From Marinitoga aeolica (GTDB lineage Bacteria > Thermotogota > Thermotogae > Petrotogales > Petrotogaceae), in assembly GCF_029910535.1 (NCBI RefSeq), contig NZ_CP069362.1, positions 1,674,001-1,738,000 on the forward strand: DNA of 64,000 bases. Reading direction: 5' to 3'. The position numbers and the translations under genes were made by a program. The notes beneath the pieces were generated by a model. It made no database searches and was not told the DNA's origin. It saw only the letters and a program-made list of their open reading frames with translations. Every line of letters begins with the position of its first letter. Positions within the stretch are counted from its first letter, which is position 1. Shown piece after piece: positions 54,492 to 62,889 of this stretch.

Positions 54492-55025
54492 TCAATTTTT
54501 GTATTTCCATATGTTAATTATTGTTATTTTTAATAAAATGTATCCTATAACAAAACAGAATACAGCATTTAATGCTGAAACTGGTGTTGATATTCCCGAT
54601 AATGTCATTGTTTGAATTAATAAAAATATAAATACAATTATAAACTTTAAAAATCCCAGATGTAAATATATTAAATTTACTAATGTTAATGCATATAACA
54701 ATACTATAGTATTTAATAATCCCATTCTAAAGAATTTTCCAAATATTAATGTTCTCATTTTTATTGGTAAACTTAATTCAAAATATATCTTTTGTTTTGT
54801 CACAAATTCTATTCCTAATTCAACTCCGCCAACTATTGAAACTATTATCATTGCCAGAGATATTAACCCTATTGATAATGCCTGTGAATACATATCGCTA
54901 TTAGAAATTTTTCCCAAACCATATGGTAATATCATTATAGATATAGTCTGGGATATCAATAATGTGATTATTTTTGATTTTTCCAGAAATAAGTATTTGG
55001 CTTCATATTTATAATATTCCAGCAT
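54492..55025 (-). CDS. ABC-2 type permease, shortened
   Basis: A 177-residue membrane protein beginning LEYYKYEAKYLFLEKSK, with about five hydrophobic helices and an ELSLPIKMRTLIFGKFFRMG segment typical of ABC-2 permeases. The sequence jumps from SGISTPVSALN directly to AVFCFVIGYILL. In relatives a stretch of roughly 50-60 residues with another helix lies between these, so an internal deletion is inferred. The ATG has GGAGGTAAATTA and overlaps the stop of the ATPase tail (TAATG). Probably the partner of that interrupted ATPase. Confidence 0.65.
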   Translation of the reverse strand: MLEYYKYEAKYLFLEKSKIITLLISQTISIMILPYGLGKISNSDMYSQALSIGLISLAMIIVSIVGGVELGIEFVTKQKIYFELSLPIKMRTLIFGKFFRMGLLNTIVLLYALTLVNLIYLHLGFLKFIIVFIFLLIQTMTLSGISTPVSALNAVFCFVIGYILLKITIINIWKYKN

Positions 55026-56038
55026 TAATTTACCTCCATACTCAATATCTGCACTTTGTATTCAACAAATGTCTTTAATACATCATTTTCTACTGTTTCA
55101 ATATTGTCATTTGTGTATACTTCTATAACATGTTTTAATTCTTTATTTTCCATAGTTGCTACCTGTGTTTTTTCAATACCTAATTTTTCCAGAACATCAT
55201 CAACCGATATATCAGTATTTGATAAATCAACCACTTTTATATTTGCATTACCAAATTTTTGTTGAATATCATTTTTTATTTTATCTAATTCTGCTTTAAC
55301 AACTACTTTTTCTACTCCTTCTATTTTTTCTATCTTTTCCTTTATTTCTTTTTTTCAATTTTTTACTGTAAATTTCAATATTTTCATTATTTTCCCCTCC
55401 CTAAAATCTTTTATTTTTCCATCTATTATTATTTTTTTAGTATCTGCCAATTCATTTAATTCATTTCTCATATTTGTAACCAATAATATTATCTTCTTTT
55501 CTTTTTTTAAACTCCTTATATGATCCCAGGCCGTTTTTTGAGATTCTGGATCGAATCCTATTGTGGGTTCATCAAATAAATGAAATAGAGCATCTTTATA
55601 TATTATGGATTTTAAAAATTCTATTTTCTTTTTTGTTCCACCTGAAAGATGTGTTATCTTCTTTTTCATATCTTCATTTTTTATCCCATAACTTTCTGCT
55701 AAAGAGATAATATCTTTTTTTCTATATGGACTTTTTACAATTTTTGAATAAAATAATAAAAAGTCTATTGTTTTAAATCCAGAAGGCACTATGTTTTCCT
55801 GAAAAACTGCACATATATCTTTTTTAACTTTATTATTTTTATGTATATCTTTCCCATTTAGAAATATATTTCCATTATCTGGCTTCATTATTCCACTCAA
55901 TATCTTCAATAATGTACTTTTACCACTTGCGTTATGCCCAAATAAACTGAAAATTTCTCCTTCTTTAATTTCAAAAGTTATATTATTTAATATTATTTGC
56001 TTTTTTAAACTTTTCTGCAATTGTTCTACTTTGAGCAT
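55025..56038 (-). pseudogene. ABC transporter ATPase split by an in-frame TGA
   Basis: The N-terminal part (55355-56038, 227 aa) is a full ABC domain: GHNASGKST, LSGGTKKK, LFDEPTIGFD. It ends FTVKN-TGA at 55357-55355. Reading on in the same frame gives KKEIKEKIEKIEGVEKVVV and continues unbroken for 109 codons to 55025, with no ribosome site or proper start. This is the C-terminal domain normal for this ABC class. A TGG (Trp) to TGA change best explains it; readthrough or sequence error are alternatives. The ABC domain alone may still be active. Confidence 0.75.
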
Positions 56039-56043
56039 TATTA

Positions 56044-56222
56044 CTTACCTCCAGTAATATATCTATTAAATCAGTATTTTCATATTTAATCAATTCTAAA
56101 TTTTTTATCCATACTTTTATTATTATTAAAAATTTGAATAGCATCAATAAATAATGTTGTAATTATCCTTCTTACCCAATTTATATCTTTTATATATTTC
56201 TCAAGTAAAAAGAATTCAAATT
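56044..56222 (-). pseudogene. Short frameshifted coding remnant
   Basis: In the 205-bp gap between the two ABC genes, a frame encodes EFFLLEKYIKDINWVRR and a hydrophobic IITTLFIDAIQIF stretch, then shifts frame to LELIKYENTDLIDILLEVSN. It has no start or ribosome site. It looks like a decayed small cluster gene, but it is too short to assign and could be chance. Confidence 0.3.
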
Positions 56223-56243
56223 ATAATTGAAAACTTATTATAA

Positions 56244-57839
56244 TTAAAAACTCGAAAATTGCTCAATATCTATAATTTTTCCAATTTTGCTTATATCTTT
56301 ATCATGGGTTGATATTATTACAATTTTATCTTTTAAAAACTTATTTATACCATAAAGTATTTTTTGTTTTGTTTTTTTATCTACTCCATTTAAAGGCTCA
56401 TCAAGTAATATTATCTTTCTTTCTTTAGCTGTTAACGCTCTTGCAAGTAGAATTCTTGATTTTTGTCCTCCAGATATATTATTTCCATTTTTTTCCAATT
56501 TATAATCAAGATGAATATCTTTTAAGCTAAAAAAATCAAGCATTTCTCTTATTATTTCTTTATTTATATTTCTTCCCAGAGATATGTTTTCATATACACT
56601 TTCATTAAATATATAATCATTTTGTGTCATATAAGATATTTTATTAATTATATTTTTAACCTCTAAATTATTATCGTTGTTTATTTTTATTTTGCCTTTT
56701 CCTATTTCTTTTCTTCCACTTAAAATATCTAATAAAGTTGTTTTCCCCGTTCCACTTTTTCCTTTTATTATTATAATTTCATTTTTATATGCAGAAAATG
56801 AAAGATTTTCAATTAAATTAGTTCCATTATATCCATAGGATAAATTTTCAACTAAAATATTGTTTATTTCTTCTTCGGATATTTTAGATAAATTTTTTTT
56901 ATTATTTTCAATATATTCTAATAAAATATTTTTGTTTGAAAGAGCTCTTGATATATCTGAGGTTATTATTGATAATTGCTGAGCAACAATAAATATTGTT
57001 CCTGAATAATTTAATATCATCTGAAATGTTCCTATTGTAATTGTTTTAGAAATTAATTGATATATAGATATTATCAATATCATTGAAAAAGATATTGTTC
57101 TTATATATTCTGGTATCATATTAATATATATATGATTAATTGAATATGCTTTTTTATTTTTTTCTGTAAATTCATCAAATTCTTTATTTTGTTTTTCAAA
57201 AAAATATTTGATTTTATTATATAAATATAAGTCCACACGTGTCTTTAATAGATTTTCAACTTTTGCTTTTAAATCTCTTTTTGTATTTTGAACTTTCTGA
57301 AATCCTTCTGAATTTTTTTTAAAAGCTATCTTAAAATGAAAAAATATACTTACGAGATAAAAGACTATTATTGCTGTATACAATATATTTATTTTGAACA
57401 TTATATATCCTGAAATAAGTATATATAATGTGTATAATGATGTTATAACTATCCTCGGATTCATTATGGATAAAAATATTTCTATGTCATCAAATATTAA
57501 TGTTTGAATATATCCTATACCTTTTTCAGATATTTTTTCACTTTTATTATTAATTATATTTTTTAATAATTTTTTTCTTAATTCTTTTTCTGAAGAAGCT
57601 TCTGTATATGTTGATAATATTCCGCTTATTAATTCAGTAATTTCTGATGCGATATATATTAAAAATAGGGAGATAATCATTTGAATTTTTACATCTTTAT
57701 TATTAATTGTATAATCAATTATCTTTTTTATTTGTAATGGTATTCCAATTTGAAATATCATTGATAATATTCCAAATATTATAGCTAAAAAGAATATAAT
57801 CAAGTTTTTGTATCCAACATTTTTTAATAATTTCCACAT
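56244..57839 (-). CDS. ABC exporter half-transporter (subunit 2)
   Basis: A 531-residue fusion of a six-helix membrane domain (about 1-310) and an ATPase domain (about 330-531) with GKSGTGKTT, NISGGQKSRILLAR and IILLDEPLNGVD. No C39 peptidase is present, so any leader must be removed otherwise. With its neighbour it probably forms a heterodimeric exporter for the peptide encoded upstream. ATG behind AAGGTGATAAT. Confidence 0.87.
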   Translation of the reverse strand: MWKLLKNVGYKNLIIFFLAIIFGILSMIFQIGIPLQIKKIIDYTINNKDVKIQMIISLFLIYIASEITELISGILSTYTEASSEKELRKKLLKNIINNKSEKISEKGIGYIQTLIFDDIEIFLSIMNPRIVITSLYTLYILISGYIMFKINILYTAIIVFYLVSIFFHFKIAFKKNSEGFQKVQNTKRDLKAKVENLLKTRVDLYLYNKIKYFFEKQNKEFDEFTEKNKKAYSINHIYINMIPEYIRTISFSMILIISIYQLISKTITIGTFQMILNYSGTIFIVAQQLSIITSDISRALSNKNILLEYIENNKKNLSKISEEEINNILVENLSYGYNGTNLIENLSFSAYKNEIIIIKGKSGTGKTTLLDILSGRKEIGKGKIKINNDNNLEVKNIINKISYMTQNDYIFNESVYENISLGRNINKEIIREMLDFFSLKDIHLDYKLEKNGNNISGGQKSRILLARALTAKERKIILLDEPLNGVDKKTKQKILYGINKFLKDKIVIISTHDKDISKIGKIIDIEQFSSF

Positions 57840-57848
57840 ATTATCACC

Positions 57849-59414
57849 TTATAAGTTTATGACTTTATCAGCCATTTTATCAAGAATATTTTCATGACTT
57901 ATTACTATACACATCTTTTTTTCTTTTATTTCTTCTATTAATTTTATTATTAAATTTCTATTGAATTCATCTAAATTTGTAAATGGTTCATCAAATATTA
58001 CTATTTGTGAATTATCAATTATGGTTCTTCCTAATAATATTCTTTTTAATTGCCCTCCTGAAATATTTTCTCCATTAAAATCAATTATATAATCAATATT
58101 TTCTTTAAATTTATTTAAGGCTATTTTTTCGAGCGTTCTAATTATTTGCTCCATTTCATAATTTCTTCCAAAATCAATATTTTCTCTTATAGAGTCATAT
58201 ATAACAGAACTATCTTGCATTAATACTTTTATGTTATTTTTTACATAATTAATATTCTCTTTTTTTATATTTATACCATTTAAATTTATTTCACCAGATT
58301 GTGGTTCTGTAATTCCCAATATCAATTTTATCAATGTACTTTTTCCTCTACCACTTTCTCCTTTTATTACATATAATCCTTTACCGGATAATTTTAGATT
58401 TAAATTTTCAAATATTATTTTTTTATCATTATATTGGAATTTAATATTTTTTAATTCTATTTGAGGACTTTCTGTTGTTTCTAATACATTTTCAACATTT
58501 TCAGTTAATTCTATTTCTTTTAATTTATCTATTTCTTTTAATTTATTTCTACTAACCTTTATTTTTTTATATTCATTTATTAGAAATTTAAAAACCTCTA
58601 TTGGATCTACAACGTTTTCTTTCAGTTCAAATATCATGAAATATGTTCCTAACGTTATTAATCCATTTTTTATATCCATTAATAGCATATAAATTATCAT
58701 TAAATTAAAAAAAATCACAATTAAAGAATTTATTTGATTCAAAAGGGTATATTTTATATAATATTTCATATGTTCTTTTATATTTTCATTTTCATATCGT
58801 TCTTTTATTTTATAAAATTTATCAAATACATTATATTGAGAAATTGATTTATATCCAGAAATAAAATCCATTTGATTATCTACAAGTGTTTTATATTTTT
58901 CATTAACTTTATCGTATTTTATCTTACGGTGTAATCGTAAATTTAAAGCTATTAATATTATATAAATTAAGGATAATGTAAAATACTTAATCCCTGCTAT
59001 ATATCCTATGAGTGCAAGTGATATTATGCTTATTATCAATCTTCCATAAAACATAGCAAAAAATATTTGGTTTGGTTCAACATCATTATATGTATCATCA
59101 AATATCATATTTAGCAATGTACCATTATCAAAAAGTTTTTTCTTGTCATGTAAGGATTTAAATAAATAGAATTTTATTTTTTCCTTATAAAATATAGGCC
59201 ATATATGTCTATTTGCGACTCCAAAATATAATAATAAAGTTAATTCAATAATAATTATTATAGTATATAAATATGCTCCATATAACGACATTTTAGGAGC
59301 TTGTGTAATCATGTCTATTGTCCATTTAAGCAACAGGGGTAATAATACAGCTTTTACAACTCTTAGTAATATTTCAAATAAAAACAATAATTTATTTTTT
59401 AACTTTATATCCAT
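57849..59414 (-). CDS. ABC exporter half-transporter (subunit 1)
   Basis: A 521-residue membrane-ATPase fusion with GESGRGKSTL, NISGGQLKRILLGR and IVIFDEPFTNLD. The switch His is present in VISHE. Membrane helices fill roughly residues 10-300. It follows the SPASM maturase by 2 bp, so export and modification are coexpressed. It differs from subunit 2 enough to suggest a heterodimer. Confidence 0.87.
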   Translation of the reverse strand: MDIKLKNKLLFLFEILLRVVKAVLLPLLLKWTIDMITQAPKMSLYGAYLYTIIIIIELTLLLYFGVANRHIWPIFYKEKIKFYLFKSLHDKKKLFDNGTLLNMIFDDTYNDVEPNQIFFAMFYGRLIISIISLALIGYIAGIKYFTLSLIYIILIALNLRLHRKIKYDKVNEKYKTLVDNQMDFISGYKSISQYNVFDKFYKIKERYENENIKEHMKYYIKYTLLNQINSLIVIFFNLMIIYMLLMDIKNGLITLGTYFMIFELKENVVDPIEVFKFLINEYKKIKVSRNKLKEIDKLKEIELTENVENVLETTESPQIELKNIKFQYNDKKIIFENLNLKLSGKGLYVIKGESGRGKSTLIKLILGITEPQSGEINLNGINIKKENINYVKNNIKVLMQDSSVIYDSIRENIDFGRNYEMEQIIRTLEKIALNKFKENIDYIIDFNGENISGGQLKRILLGRTIIDNSQIVIFDEPFTNLDEFNRNLIIKLIEEIKEKKMCIVISHENILDKMADKVINL

Positions 59415-59416
59415 TT

Positions 59417-60691
59417 TTACACCTCTAATTCTACATTTATAGCTTCTTTAAGATAATATTTTTCTGGAATACAAAAATCATTTTTCTCTTTTATTTTTCT
59501 TGCATAGGCACAACCACCAAAACAAATAGGAAGTAAGTTGCATTTTCTACACTCTTCAAATTCAAAAACATCTCTATTTCTGCTATATAATTTATTATAT
59601 AATTTTTTATTTGTTATTATTAAATTACCTTTTGGATCAAGATATCCCATATTATTTTCATTGTTAAGTGGATCTATTCCTGTACATATTGTAATTTTAC
59701 CATCTGGGGTAAATGTAAAAGTATTTGGTAATCCAGCACTGCAACTATATAATGGATTTTTAAAAAAGCTAGAAATTTCAAAACCTTTTTCTTTCGCTTT
59801 TTTTAACAAATTATATACATATTTATCGTTATTTGCATTTTTTTCTTGTTCTGGATTATTAAATATTCCTACAATAGAAAGAAAATAATTTATATTTTTG
59901 AATTTGTACAAATCATCAAAATCTTTTTCTGTAAAATCTTCATTAATATTTAATCTATAAACGACGTTAATGTTTTTAATCTTTAAATTATCCAACTTTT
60001 TTAAATTTTTTATTATAATTTCATATGAACCATTGCCTGATTTAAAAGGTCTCATTTTATTATGTCGCTTTTTTGAACCATCCTGTGTTATTTGAATATT
60101 AATGTGTTCAGAAATTTCTGATAGTTTTATATAAAATTTTTCATCAAAAATCGAACCATTTGTTACTATATTCGCAATTAATTTTATATTTTTATTATTT
60201 ATTATGTTATATACAGATTCTGAAATTTTAAAAATTTTATCCTTTAATAACATAGGTTCCCCACCGAAAAACGTTAAGACAACCGACTTAATGTTTGAAT
60301 TTATTTTGTTTTTTATAAAATTAATTATAGCATTTTCATAAATATCCGATATATGAATTCTTTGATGATTTTGATAGCAATATGAACAATTAAAATTACA
60401 ATAATGTGTTAGAAATATTTTGATTATCAAATTTTCATTAATAAATGATTCATAATATTTCCTTAATAAATCTAGTTCGTCTATATCATCCTCTATTAAA
60501 AATTTATTTTCTATTAATACATTATAAAATTCTTGATTAAAATTTTTTAGAGAATCATTAGGAGAAGACAATATTTTCATTAGTTTTTTTTCATGATAAT
60601 TATCAAATATAACAAGGGATTGATATAATGTATTAAATAAAATTATTTTATTATCTATTTTTTTATATATTGTATATTTAGATTTTCTCAT
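59417..60691 (-). CDS. Radical SAM/SPASM peptide maturase
   Basis: A 424-residue RiPP maturase. Residues 1-85 form a PqqD-like leader-recognition region. The radical SAM cluster is C98-x3-C102-x2-C105 (HYCNFNCSYCYQ), with GGEPML following. The C-terminal SPASM region holds CSAGLPN, CTGIDP and CRKCNLLPICFGGC plus a final Cys, enough for two auxiliary [4Fe-4S] clusters. Enzymes of this form make thioether or other crosslinks from Cys. The Cys-rich precursor gene lies 109 bp upstream on the same strand. Confidence 0.92.
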   Translation of the reverse strand: MRKSKYTIYKKIDNKIILFNTLYQSLVIFDNYHEKKLMKILSSPNDSLKNFNQEFYNVLIENKFLIEDDIDELDLLRKYYESFINENLIIKIFLTHYCNFNCSYCYQNHQRIHISDIYENAIINFIKNKINSNIKSVVLTFFGGEPMLLKDKIFKISESVYNIINNKNIKLIANIVTNGSIFDEKFYIKLSEISEHINIQITQDGSKKRHNKMRPFKSGNGSYEIIIKNLKKLDNLKIKNINVVYRLNINEDFTEKDFDDLYKFKNINYFLSIVGIFNNPEQEKNANNDKYVYNLLKKAKEKGFEISSFFKNPLYSCSAGLPNTFTFTPDGKITICTGIDPLNNENNMGYLDPKGNLIITNKKLYNKLYSRNRDVFEFEECRKCNLLPICFGGCAYARKIKEKNDFCIPEKYYLKEAINVELEV

Positions 60692-60771
60692 AAGATCACC
60701 TCTAAAAAACTAAATATTAATTTTAATTGGTTTTAACTATGTAGTCTGTTCTATATCATTCTAACTATCAT

Positions 60772-60789
60772 GGAGGGAGTACTCCCTCC
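60772..60789 (-). promoter_or_regulatory. Perfect 18-bp palindrome between precursor and maturase genes
   Basis: GGAGGGAGTACTCCCTCC folds to a nine-pair stem without loop bases, or a shorter stem with a small loop, 11 bp after the precursor stop. There is no long T-tract on the minus strand. It probably protects the precursor RNA or partly attenuates transcription, giving more precursor than enzyme. Confidence 0.5.
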
Positions 60790-60800
60790 TATTAAAAATT

Positions 60801-60905
60801 TTATTTGCCATTGCAATTACAATTTGTATTTGTACATCCATCATTATTAGTGAAAATACTTGATAATTTTGATTTAGGCTTCTTTATTACTTTTACACCT
60901 TGCAT
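60801..60905 (-). CDS. RiPP precursor peptide, Cys-rich, 34 residues
   Basis: ATG 60905 with the perfect ribosome site AAAGGAGG opens 34 codons. A basic leader (MQGVKVIKKPKSKLSSIF) is followed by a core TNNDGCTNTNCNCNGK with Cys at 24, 29 and 31 in Gly/Asn/Thr surroundings. The IKKP leader and small Cys-rich C-terminus are like clostridial radical SAM-modified peptides (the Clo7bot-like Cys-rich group). It lies directly upstream of the SPASM maturase and exporter. The product is presumably a thioether-bridged peptide with signalling or antimicrobial action. Confidence 0.82.
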   Translation of the reverse strand: MQGVKVIKKPKSKLSSIFTNNDGCTNTNCNCNGK

Positions 60906-60925
60906 TTTATACCTCCTTTCGATTA

Positions 60926-60961
60926 TATTATCTTCTAGTACTAGATAATAACAGCCGGCTG
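60926..60961 (-). promoter_or_regulatory. Leader hairpins of the precursor gene
   Basis: TATTATCT (60926-60933) and AGATAATA (60943-60950) pair around a nine-base loop containing CTAGTACT. Just before it (in transcript order) lies the GC-rich palindrome CAGCCGGCTG (60952-60961), striking in this AT-rich DNA. They end about 13 bp before the ribosome site and may stabilise the mRNA or bind a regulator. Confidence 0.45.
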
Positions 60962-61052
60962 AAAAATTTTAATTTTAGTTTATAAACCACATTGTATTAC
61001 AAAAAATCATATGTTATAATGTTAATAAAACAATTGAGCATAAAGATGTTTT

Positions 61053-61184
61053 TTATTCAGAAACTTCAGTTTGAATTTGAGGATTAGTTGAATGAGTAGT
61101 TGAATTACTTTTATCATCACCACCATATACCATTGTTGAAGATAATATTATGATTGCCATTATTAATATAATTATTTTTTTCAT
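61053..61184 (-). CDS. 43-residue secreted peptide
   Basis: ATG 61184 behind GAGGGGGGTG encodes a signal peptide (MKKIIILIMAIIILSSTMVYG) and a 22-residue mature part, GDDKSNSTTHSTNPQIQTEV then SE, polar and rich in Ser, Thr and Asn, without Cys. It is the first gene of the RiPP unit. It could be a secreted signal, an immunity or processing partner, or a second peptide product. No homologue is recalled. Confidence 0.65.
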   Translation of the reverse strand: MKKIIILIMAIIILSSTMVYGGDDKSNSTTHSTNPQIQTEVSE

Positions 61185-61203
61185 TTTTTCACCCCCCTCA
61201 TTT

Positions 61204-61231
61204 ATCTTAGCATTTCTCATATGACTGTCAA
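61204..61231 (-). promoter_or_regulatory. Promoter of the RiPP cluster
   Basis: On the minus strand TTGACA (61231-61226) and TAAGAT (61209-61204) are 16 bp apart, 20 bp before the first peptide gene. It is the best promoter match in the 61185-61464 divergent region; the rest of that gap is AT-rich with no further gene seen. Confidence 0.6.
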
Positions 61232-61464: not shown

Positions 61465-62889
61465 ATGAAACATTATTCCTTAAATAAATTAATTGATATT
61501 ATAGAATATGGAGCTTTTTCTAAACCTATTGTGAATTATATTTTAACTAATACTGAGGATGAAGATTTGGTTTATTATCTTTTATGCTTAAAATCCATTT
61601 GGAAAAACAAACACAGAGAAGCTTTTAAATATGCCGATCTCGTTACTACTACTACTACTACTACAATTTTAAATGAACTTGCTACTCTTGAAAAAATTAG
61701 TATTTTATTTAATAATAATAAAATTAAAAAAGCTAATATTGAATTAAGAAAGATTAAAAATAATATTCAATCTCTTAATAAAAAAGCAAGAAAAATTATT
61801 ATTCCTGCTTTGAGATTTATGGAAATAAGATTTTCAAATTTAATTGATGAAAATCTTGTTAGATATTGGAGTGCAGAGTATGAAAGTAGTTATGCACAGA
61901 AATCATTATTAAAGTATTCTGAAGCCAGAAAATATTTAAATAATAAAGATTTTCATAAAGCTTTTGATTTATTTATTGAAGGGTTTAATTTTGCAAAAAG
62001 GTTTCCTCATCCCACAATGATATGTTCTGGATTGAATAATGCAGCATGGTGGATAAGAAATATTGATAAAAATAAATCTTTATATACTGCGATTTTATTG
62101 GAGTATAATATTGGTTATTATTTTGAAGACTTATTTAAAATTTATAATTGGTTTGATACTATTTTTGATGTTTATTCAATTAATAATTATATTGGTTTAT
62201 ATGAAATTTCAAGAATTGTGAATGAATTAAAAAATAATATAAATGTTGATAATAAATTTAATAAAGATTTTTATAATAGTTCAAATAAAAAACATATTAG
62301 TTTTTTATTTAAGAATAATATTAACCAAATTATGACTATATTTGATTTCAATTTTCCAATAGTATTTTTATCAACATATTCAGCATTAATAGAAAAACCA
62401 TATTTTACAAAGAGTCGGATTTTGAAAGTGATTTTTGAAGGAGATAAAGATAAAATCATTAAATACTTCTCAAATAATTATGAGAAGATGTATTTTTTTA
62501 ACTTAATGCTATCTGAATTTAAGGTTAAAGAAATCGAGAAAAGGATAATGAATCCTAATGATTTCGAAAAGATAAAACCTGATGTATCTCCATTTTTCAT
62601 ATCAAGAAAAAAACTCATCTTTAATCTTTTAAAAAATGCGAAAAAATTCAAGGAGTTTATTCTTAACTATTTCGAACTCAATGAAGAAGAAATGAGAACT
62701 TTTGATATGTTTTTAAGAAATTGTGTTCGTTATGATATAAAATGGCCAATTACACCTTATCCTAAAGGGAAAGTTCGTGATTTTGCAATTAAATATGGTC
62801 TTGGTCAAAAACGTGTTGCTTTAGGACATTATTCTTTTGAAGACAATGAAAGACTTTTTCTTGATTCTATTATTGAGAAGTTTTTATAA
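61465..62889 (+). CDS. Large helical protein divergent from the RiPP cluster, unknown function
   Basis: A 474-residue protein with no signal or clear membrane helix and a mostly helical make-up. The region of about residues 90-260 resembles TPR-like repeats (ARKYLNNKDFHKAFDLFIEG). A run of seven Thr at residues 61-67 is encoded by an ACT triplet repeat. The conserved-looking C-terminus (PITPYPKGKVRDFAIKYGLG) could be DNA-binding, but no HTH is certain. A regulator or peptide-responsive protein is possible from its divergent position. Not recognised. Confidence 0.6.
   Translation: MKHYSLNKLIDIIEYGAFSKPIVNYILTNTEDEDLVYYLLCLKSIWKNKHREAFKYADLVTTTTTTTILNELATLEKISILFNNNKIKKANIELRKIKNNIQSLNKKARKIIIPALRFMEIRFSNLIDENLVRYWSAEYESSYAQKSLLKYSEARKYLNNKDFHKAFDLFIEGFNFAKRFPHPTMICSGLNNAAWWIRNIDKNKSLYTAILLEYNIGYYFEDLFKIYNWFDTIFDVYSINNYIGLYEISRIVNELKNNINVDNKFNKDFYNSSNKKHISFLFKNNINQIMTIFDFNFPIVFLSTYSALIEKPYFTKSRILKVIFEGDKDKIIKYFSNNYEKMYFFNLMLSEFKVKEIEKRIMNPNDFEKIKPDVSPFFISRKKLIFNLLKNAKKFKEFILNYFELNEEEMRTFDMFLRNCVRYDIKWPITPYPKGKVRDFAIKYGLGQKRVALGHYSFEDNERLFLDSIIEKFL
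61645..61664 (+). repeat. ACT trinucleotide microsatellite
   Basis: Six perfect ACT units and a partial seventh lie inside the coding sequence, giving a poly-threonine tract. Length changes would keep the frame. Confidence 0.8.

Follow-up and report, generated by a model that had tools for sequence, protein, structure and literature searches.

A pheromone-receptor-like gene pair beside a radical SAM peptide operon in Marinitoga aeolica

A 64-kb window (genome 1674001-1738000) of the single-contig genome of the thermophile Marinitoga aeolica (2,444,241 bp), to whose positions all coordinates below refer unless marked otherwise, contains a minus-strand operon for a ribosomally synthesized and post-translationally modified peptide (RiPP) with a maturase of the radical S-adenosylmethionine (SAM)/SPASM type. 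The operon unit reaches upstream past position 61231 and includes a divergent gene (61465-62889, plus strand) for a receptor-like protein of 474 amino acids (aa), which belongs to a Thermotogota family, has a tetratricopeptide-repeat (TPR) fold and lacks a helix-turn-helix (HTH). Cytoplasmic peptide-pheromone switches with TPR-type receptors have been described for Firmicutes; a literature search retrieved none from Thermotogota or another diderm phylum. We consider it fairly probable (approximately 0.6) that the TPR gene and an adjoining gene for a small secreted peptide form an RRNPP-like pheromone-receptor module that controls this operon. This reading was adopted because the module largely shows the five-point RRNPP signature (small propeptide, Sec signal, receptor of approximately 250-500 aa, TPRs and adjacency; PMC10075063) and because streptococci control radical SAM RiPP operons with such pairs, termed Rgg/SHP (PMC13361665). 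It draws on comparison of gene order, of the conservation of precursor, maturase and propeptide-TPR pairing, of HTH domains in longer paralogues and of the regular Asn-x-x-Cys (NxxC) spacing in the precursor core.

Pairing of the TPR protein with a Sec-type propeptide

All genes listed in a first-pass annotation of the window were located on its minus strand, close to the positions and in the order given there. The promoter that it had placed at the head of the operon was recovered as a promoter-like TTGACA-16-TAAGAT sequence (61204-61231, minus strand), and a similar sequence was shared by most aligned Marinitoga paralogues. Downstream lies the gene for a 43-aa peptide (MKKIIILIMAIIILSSTMVYGGDDKSNSTTHSTNPQIQTEVSE; 61053-61184, minus strand), which the annotation had called secreted. 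A Sec-type signal is indeed present, but the peptide is better read as a candidate pheromone propeptide paired with the divergent TPR gene. Its reading as a second RiPP precursor was rejected, because conserved Cys are lacking and its occurrence tracks the TPR gene, not the maturase.

The TPR family was detected in 54 of 103 Thermotogota genomes, with up to approximately 17 matches per genome when split and partial copies were counted. Small peptides called Sec-type by a simple hydropathy-based test of n-, h- and c-regions, and starting within 450 bp on the opposite strand, were found beside 51 of 71 TPR genes versus 2 of 289 control open reading frames (ORFs); one of these two positive controls adjoins a truncated TPR gene. 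The pairs span five GTDB families, with MKKFIVALLITVLVLGGIFVFGGDDGGEDGTSGLKPTEIVSVVEKVE and MKRFLIILILSSLLLSAISFADGGTTTNPSGNPHPPVVTKQK as typical propeptides; the propeptides of paralogues diverge at the C-terminus. Of 64 TPR loci for which 3 kb or more of sequence was available, 28 have a radical SAM gene within 5 kb on the side toward which the peptide and operon read; others encode ATP-binding cassette (ABC) exporters, membrane proteins or exported proteins. No member of the TPR family was found on plasmids. Searches of 11 genomes of other phyla and, with profile A1 (E ≤ 1e-6), of 299 Tissierella-phylum genomes returned none either, empty results of this kind being weak.

The 474-aa protein gave no match in Pfam or NCBIfam. 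Its AlphaFold2 model, based on a 74-member alignment, was an all-alpha superhelix with a predicted local distance difference test (pLDDT) score of 91.6, and Foldseek matched it mostly to TPR proteins, none of them below E 0.01. Longer members of the family showed weak Pfam matches to TPR_12 and TPR_2 and carried an XRE-type HTH_26 or HTH_3 domain (best match 30.5 bits, cut-off 22, residues 296-345). The C-terminal 113 residues are conserved and include two invariant residues, R and Y; the possibility that this domain is a DNA-binding fold received no support from Foldseek.

Variation within the pairs was compared between receptor and peptide. In the M. aeolica genome, two neighbouring receptors are identical over their first 300 residues but have diverged in the final 125, and their propeptides have a common signal part with different tails (IQTEVSE versus VQIEILE). 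A gene-conversion tract centred between the divergent receptor and peptide genes would produce this pattern too. Peptide and receptor distances were correlated (rho 0.55, reached in 0 of 2000 permutations), a correlation that shared ancestry alone can explain.

The RiPP precursor, its maturase and the predicted cross-links

The first-pass annotation had proposed an uncalled 34-aa precursor with Cys at positions 24, 29 and 31, and this was borne out. The peptide MQGVKVIKKPKSKLSSIFTNNDGCTNTNCNCNGK (60801-60905, minus strand) consists of a leader, MQGVKVIKKPK, and a core, NDGCTNTNCNCNGK, with three NxxC motifs; AAAGGAGG, a strong ribosome site, stands ahead of its ATG. Precursors were found beside orthologous maturases in five genomes of four genera: besides that of the window, MQGVKVIKKPRPKLSSIFTNNDGCTNTNCNCNGK upstream of a 94% identical maturase in M. 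lauensis, MQGVKVVRKPKSVPIAPAGNGTCNGNCNCVL upstream of a 42-44% identical maturase in the Thermotogae metagenome-assembled genome (MAG) UBA12178, and MNKKVQVISRPINISGDKKDKVEPGNGNCFGC and MKKDTKIKIISKPTTLSGSISPSPKNGNCFGC upstream of two 38% identical maturases in two other genera. The frame was present with all close maturase orthologues, so that the lack of conservation named at first pass as refuting the proposal was not observed. In a whole-genome profile search, precursor and leader were retained in M. lauensis and UBA12178 (E ≤ 3e-15, with the same sequences having built the profile); because of this conservation, the 34-aa frame is, as judged from sequence, real and not a chance ORF. A profile of the five precursors, searched against the 103 Thermotogota genomes, returned its own five at E ≤ 1e-12, which follows from its construction, and otherwise one weak match, a scarcity that does not. 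Genomes with only distant maturases encode different Cys peptides in place of the 34-aa type. A conserved three-Cys pattern proved not to be universal, as the cores of two distant relatives contain two Cys only (...NGNCFGC).

The maturase (424 aa; 59417-60691, minus strand) contains the radical SAM CxxxCxxC motif as CNFNCSYC (PF04055, 57.5 bits, Pfam) and a 7-Cys SPASM domain (TIGR04085, 46.5 bits, cut-off 27); Cys 317, 336, 381, 384, 390, 394 and 407 are invariant across the five orthologues. With its conserved small precursor, it has the properties of a radical SAM/SPASM RiPP maturase. The label PqqD-SPASM radical SAM enzyme, given at first pass, therefore holds for its last two parts; the PqqD family gave no match, even though alignments to the best models begin close to residue 1. 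These models, TIGR04463 (158 bits), CefB (156) and Clo7bot (151), resemble the enzyme over its full length, with PapB ranking further down. Since their curated NCBIfam cut-offs are 525-600 bits, the maturase belongs to none of the three families, whose precursors also differ. The closest solved sequence was 5WGG (E 1.3e-22).

The three-Cys core had been described as matching no named class. It does suggest a known chemistry, that of the NxxC ranthipeptides, as all of its Cys stand in NxxC motifs. The cores from the window, M. lauensis and UBA12178, which are the closest three, have Asn at position i-3 of each of their Cys. The motifs are NDGC, NTNC and NCNC in the core type shared by the window and M. 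lauensis, and NGTC, NGNC and NCNC in UBA12178; between the two types the first Cys is displaced by one residue and its Asn moves along. The conserved feature of the core is N[TG]NC, and Thr is not conserved. In NxxcA of Streptococcus orisratti, Asn20 and Cys23 are joined through the beta carbon by a beta-thioether (PMC8326336, PMC13361665). As the streptococcal NxxC maturase cross-links Cys placed in just this way, we predict up to three Asn-Cys beta-thioethers, which provides an exact mass and a linkage prediction for the window peptide. The likeness to the NxxcA/NxxcB ranthipeptide system (PMC8326336) lies in the Asn-x-x-Cys core spacing and the SPASM radical SAM maturase; the window core differs by its three tandem NxxC motifs, as opposed to one in NxxcA, and by a bond chemistry that is a prediction.

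Shuffled cores matched the all-NxxC pattern with P 0.022 and 0.0045, which favours such bonds; other observations weigh against them. The two P values are not independent, as the core is Asn-rich and the sequences are homologous. In the distant relatives (n = 2), one of two Cys is in NxxC, so that a single motif is retained. The maturase is nearest to the CefB, Clo7bot and TIGR04463 models. This profile ranking, with PapB lower and 5WGG as closest solved sequence, would also fit a sactipeptide or a different ranthipeptide, cross-linked otherwise than between Asn and Cys and similar to the products of SCIFF, PapB or Clo7bot systems, for which Thr25 and Thr27 are possible acceptors. We rate such a product at somewhat less than an even chance, as N[TG]NC is conserved and Thr is not, and as the NxxC pattern takes in every Cys of the three closest cores. 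The conserved end of the core, NCNC or NCFGC, resembles metal-binding motifs, and a CxC or CxxC peptide could act as a chelator rather than on other cells. This is very unlikely: thiols are normally consumed by a radical SAM maturase, and no metal-related gene was recognised in the cassette.

Proposed regulation and its alternatives

The mechanism that we infer from these comparisons, which extends to signalling, DNA binding, bond type and export, would start with export of the 43-aa propeptide by Sec, cleavage after the signal sequence and further trimming that leaves a short C-terminal fragment. In dense or stationary-phase cultures, this fragment would return to the cell, for example via an Opp transporter (the genome encodes four solute-binding proteins of the peptide type), and bind to the divergent TPR protein in its superhelix. 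This receptor, or a paralogue bearing an XRE HTH, would then act on the pheromone promoter, and possibly on dyad sites ahead of the precursor, to raise transcription of the operon; a receptor lacking the HTH may work via a partner, as Rap proteins do, or via its own C-terminal domain. The radical SAM/SPASM enzyme would grip the precursor by its VKVIKKPK leader and form up to three Cys-to-Asn thioethers (N21-C24, N26-C29 and N28-C31), and the two ABC half-exporters would secrete the product.

Candidate control sites stand before the precursor gene: a palindrome, CAGCCGGCTG (60952-60961), which is a candidate operator or RNA element, and, adjoining it, an imperfect palindrome, TTATCTTCTAGTACTAGATAATAA (60928-60951). 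The latter occurs exactly at only two places in the genome, ahead of the precursors of the window and of the neighbouring cassette. In M. lauensis, TTATCTTCTAGTACTAGATAATAA is replaced by TCCAGTACTGGA and CAGCCGGCTG by CAACCGGTTG, with both halves changed together, so that symmetry is kept, and long palindromes are present at the same place in other loci. These palindromes could be operators or RNA hairpins; a search of the intergenic regions against Rfam returned no known RNA element. A perfect inverted repeat with 9-bp arms (60772-60789), located between the precursor and maturase genes, is possibly an attenuator that sets an excess of precursor or a hairpin for RNA stability.

A number of results speak against a pheromone-receptor module. 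At 20 of the 71 TPR genes no peptide was seen, and the call of Sec export depends on the simple n/h/c-region test. Palindrome enrichment was modest, with 13 of 50 loci at P ≤ 0.05 relative to shuffles, and the element of the window itself reached P = 0.11. The HTH segment is missing from the window receptor, as it is from roughly a dozen Marinitoga paralogues, which makes direct DNA binding by the window receptor doubtful, and Foldseek gave no fold match for the conserved C-terminal domain. The N-terminal HTH of RRNPP receptors was not found, the HTH being central in long members and absent from the window protein. Homology to RRNPP receptors was not detected, and no RRNPP protein was among the top 50 Foldseek matches.

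Since a recognisable peptide is missing at some TPR loci, since the 43-aa peptide is co-directional with the RiPP genes and since exported peptides have many possible roles, it might be a second exported product or a RiPP helper (immunity, chaperone or structural), with the TPR regulator sensing something else. This appears rather unlikely, because the peptide tracks the TPR gene, also at many loci without a nearby radical SAM gene, for instance before ABC exporters or unrelated exported proteins, and because the same kind of peptide precedes unrelated precursors. Loss of the HTH segment and an interrupted ATPase gene nearby, together with exporter genes that are broken in M. lauensis, could instead mean that the operon of this genome is inactive and in decay. 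We regard this as distinctly improbable: the precursor, the maturase and the two exporters are intact in M. aeolica, the ABC-2 genes lie outside the conserved cassette, and the HTH-less receptor is a stable class, kept at 84-88% identity in several copies and species.

We do not class the pheromone-receptor module preferred here as an RRNPP system, although it would work in a similar way: homology was not detected, the HTH is either central or absent, and signalling is a proposal. The module shares with the RRNPP systems of Firmicutes (PMC10075063) a small Sec propeptide adjoining a TPR receptor gene, the adjacency being supported by the hydropathy-based count (51/71 versus 2/289) and the TPR domain by the AlphaFold2 model, the Foldseek TPR matches (all E > 0.01) and weak Pfam matches in relatives. 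It differs in receptor length (470-600 aa), in an HTH that is internal or absent, in a host outside Firmicutes and in TPRs too divergent for the published hidden Markov model threshold (E < 1e-5). The Rgg/SHP-controlled operons of streptococci (PMC13361665) likewise combine a small secreted peptide and a TPR-type regulator with a radical SAM RiPP operon, whereas the Thermotogota receptor is not detectably homologous, has the order TPR-HTH-C-terminal domain (CTD) instead of HTH-TPR, and is accompanied by a Sec-type propeptide of 40-70 aa that is not an SHP; its signalling role is putative. The chances are about even that Thermotogota have a phylum-wide pheromone system of their own, with many copies per genome, in which a TPR-HTH-CTD receptor without detectable relation to RRNPP proteins is encoded divergently to its Sec propeptide and which commonly switches radical SAM RiPP operons. 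If the pairing means signalling, dozens of uncharacterised Thermotogota genes would gain a testable role, and heat-stable cross-linked peptides an induction route.

Related loci and neighbouring genes

The comparison with the TM1316 locus of Thermotoga maritima, made at first pass, was apt in architecture. In a 1,860,725-bp genome, locus L161 (13310-18665) contains a divergent TPR gene, a 57-aa Sec peptide, a 31-aa Cys peptide (MQKMPKPVVPNDYLNPGKGCGGAGLVCGWCG), a radical SAM gene and an ABC transporter, adjoins a hicAB-like pair and has a perfect palindrome of 18-20 bp (TCCGAACACCGGTGTTCGGA) before the TM1316-like Cys peptide. We take this locus to be TM1314-TM1319 of T. maritima MSB8, on the basis of the genome size, the hicAB pair and the length of the 31-aa peptide. 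TM1316, the subject of a 2013 report by Frock et al., reportedly has 31 aa, is induced in stationary phase and belongs to a TM1315-TM1319 operon. A review lists the MSB8 hicAB within the island of the TM1316 paper. The elements of the TM1315-TM1319 locus stand in the same order as those of the window; its precursor is unrelated in sequence, and its receptor includes the middle segment, the site of the HTH in relatives, which is missing from the window receptor. Under the module proposed here, the TM1316 locus would gain a candidate regulator and signal, and a phylum-wide pheromone system would explain its reported stationary-phase induction.

Both ABC half-exporters of the first-pass annotation were found on the minus strand, at 57849-59414 (PF00005, 91.3 bits; no peptidase domain detected) and 56244-57839 (PF00005 and PF00664). 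They occupy the same positions in UBA12178 and M. lauensis; the second is broken in M. lauensis. An ABC-2 type ATPase (55355-56038, minus strand) and a short putative ABC-2 permease of 177 aa without family match (54492-55025, minus strand) follow, as the annotation had stated, but its inclusion of both in the operon was not upheld. They are probably neighbours outside the cassette, because the orthologous cassettes of UBA12178 and M. lauensis contain neither and because an in-frame TGA breaks the ATPase gene, whose homologue in G042 is intact at 339 aa. Selenocysteine at this TGA was set aside, as the homologous frames of relatives (G041, G042 and G044) are free of stops. At 55025-55384 on the minus strand, the TGA separates the ATPase from a C-terminal extension that is preceded by GGGAGGGG and an ATG.

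A second complete module lies just beyond the window (L037:2109-8052; genome 1737109-1743052) and comprises a TPR gene, a Sec peptide, a precursor, a radical SAM gene, an ABC-2 ATPase and two permeases. Its 29-aa precursor, MNILKRIISGKMPLGGCTNRSQRCADLTQ, with a PLGGCTNRSQRCA core, is unrelated to that of the window, and the same two cassettes occur in tandem in UBA12178. The 29-aa type recurs in UBA12178, the T. maritima-sized genome and G069. In a 20-kb block elsewhere in the M. aeolica genome (L038; genome 2384001-2404000), two TPR genes, one of which is truncated, and two Sec-type propeptides are accompanied by a further four radical SAM genes and by several small peptides rich in Cys. In G052 (L151), a TPR/Sec-peptide pair stands ahead of genes for another type of RiPP, namely two radical SAM genes and one for a PqqD-like protein of 88 aa. 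A MAG labelled Thermococcus sp. encodes Cys-rich peptides (MEWIVKPVNKIQPSDCGG...) beside a radical SAM gene (L169:2389-2857); their resemblance to Thermotogota peptides such as MQWIEKNND... possibly reflects cross-domain transfer or mis-binning. TPR/Sec-peptide pairs at L085, L088, L095 and L102 are conserved across Marinitoga species. The pair at L085 precedes a non-RiPP protein of 455 aa with an N-terminal signal-like stretch and a membrane segment, and this position suggests that the TPR/Sec-peptide module also controls non-RiPP outputs.

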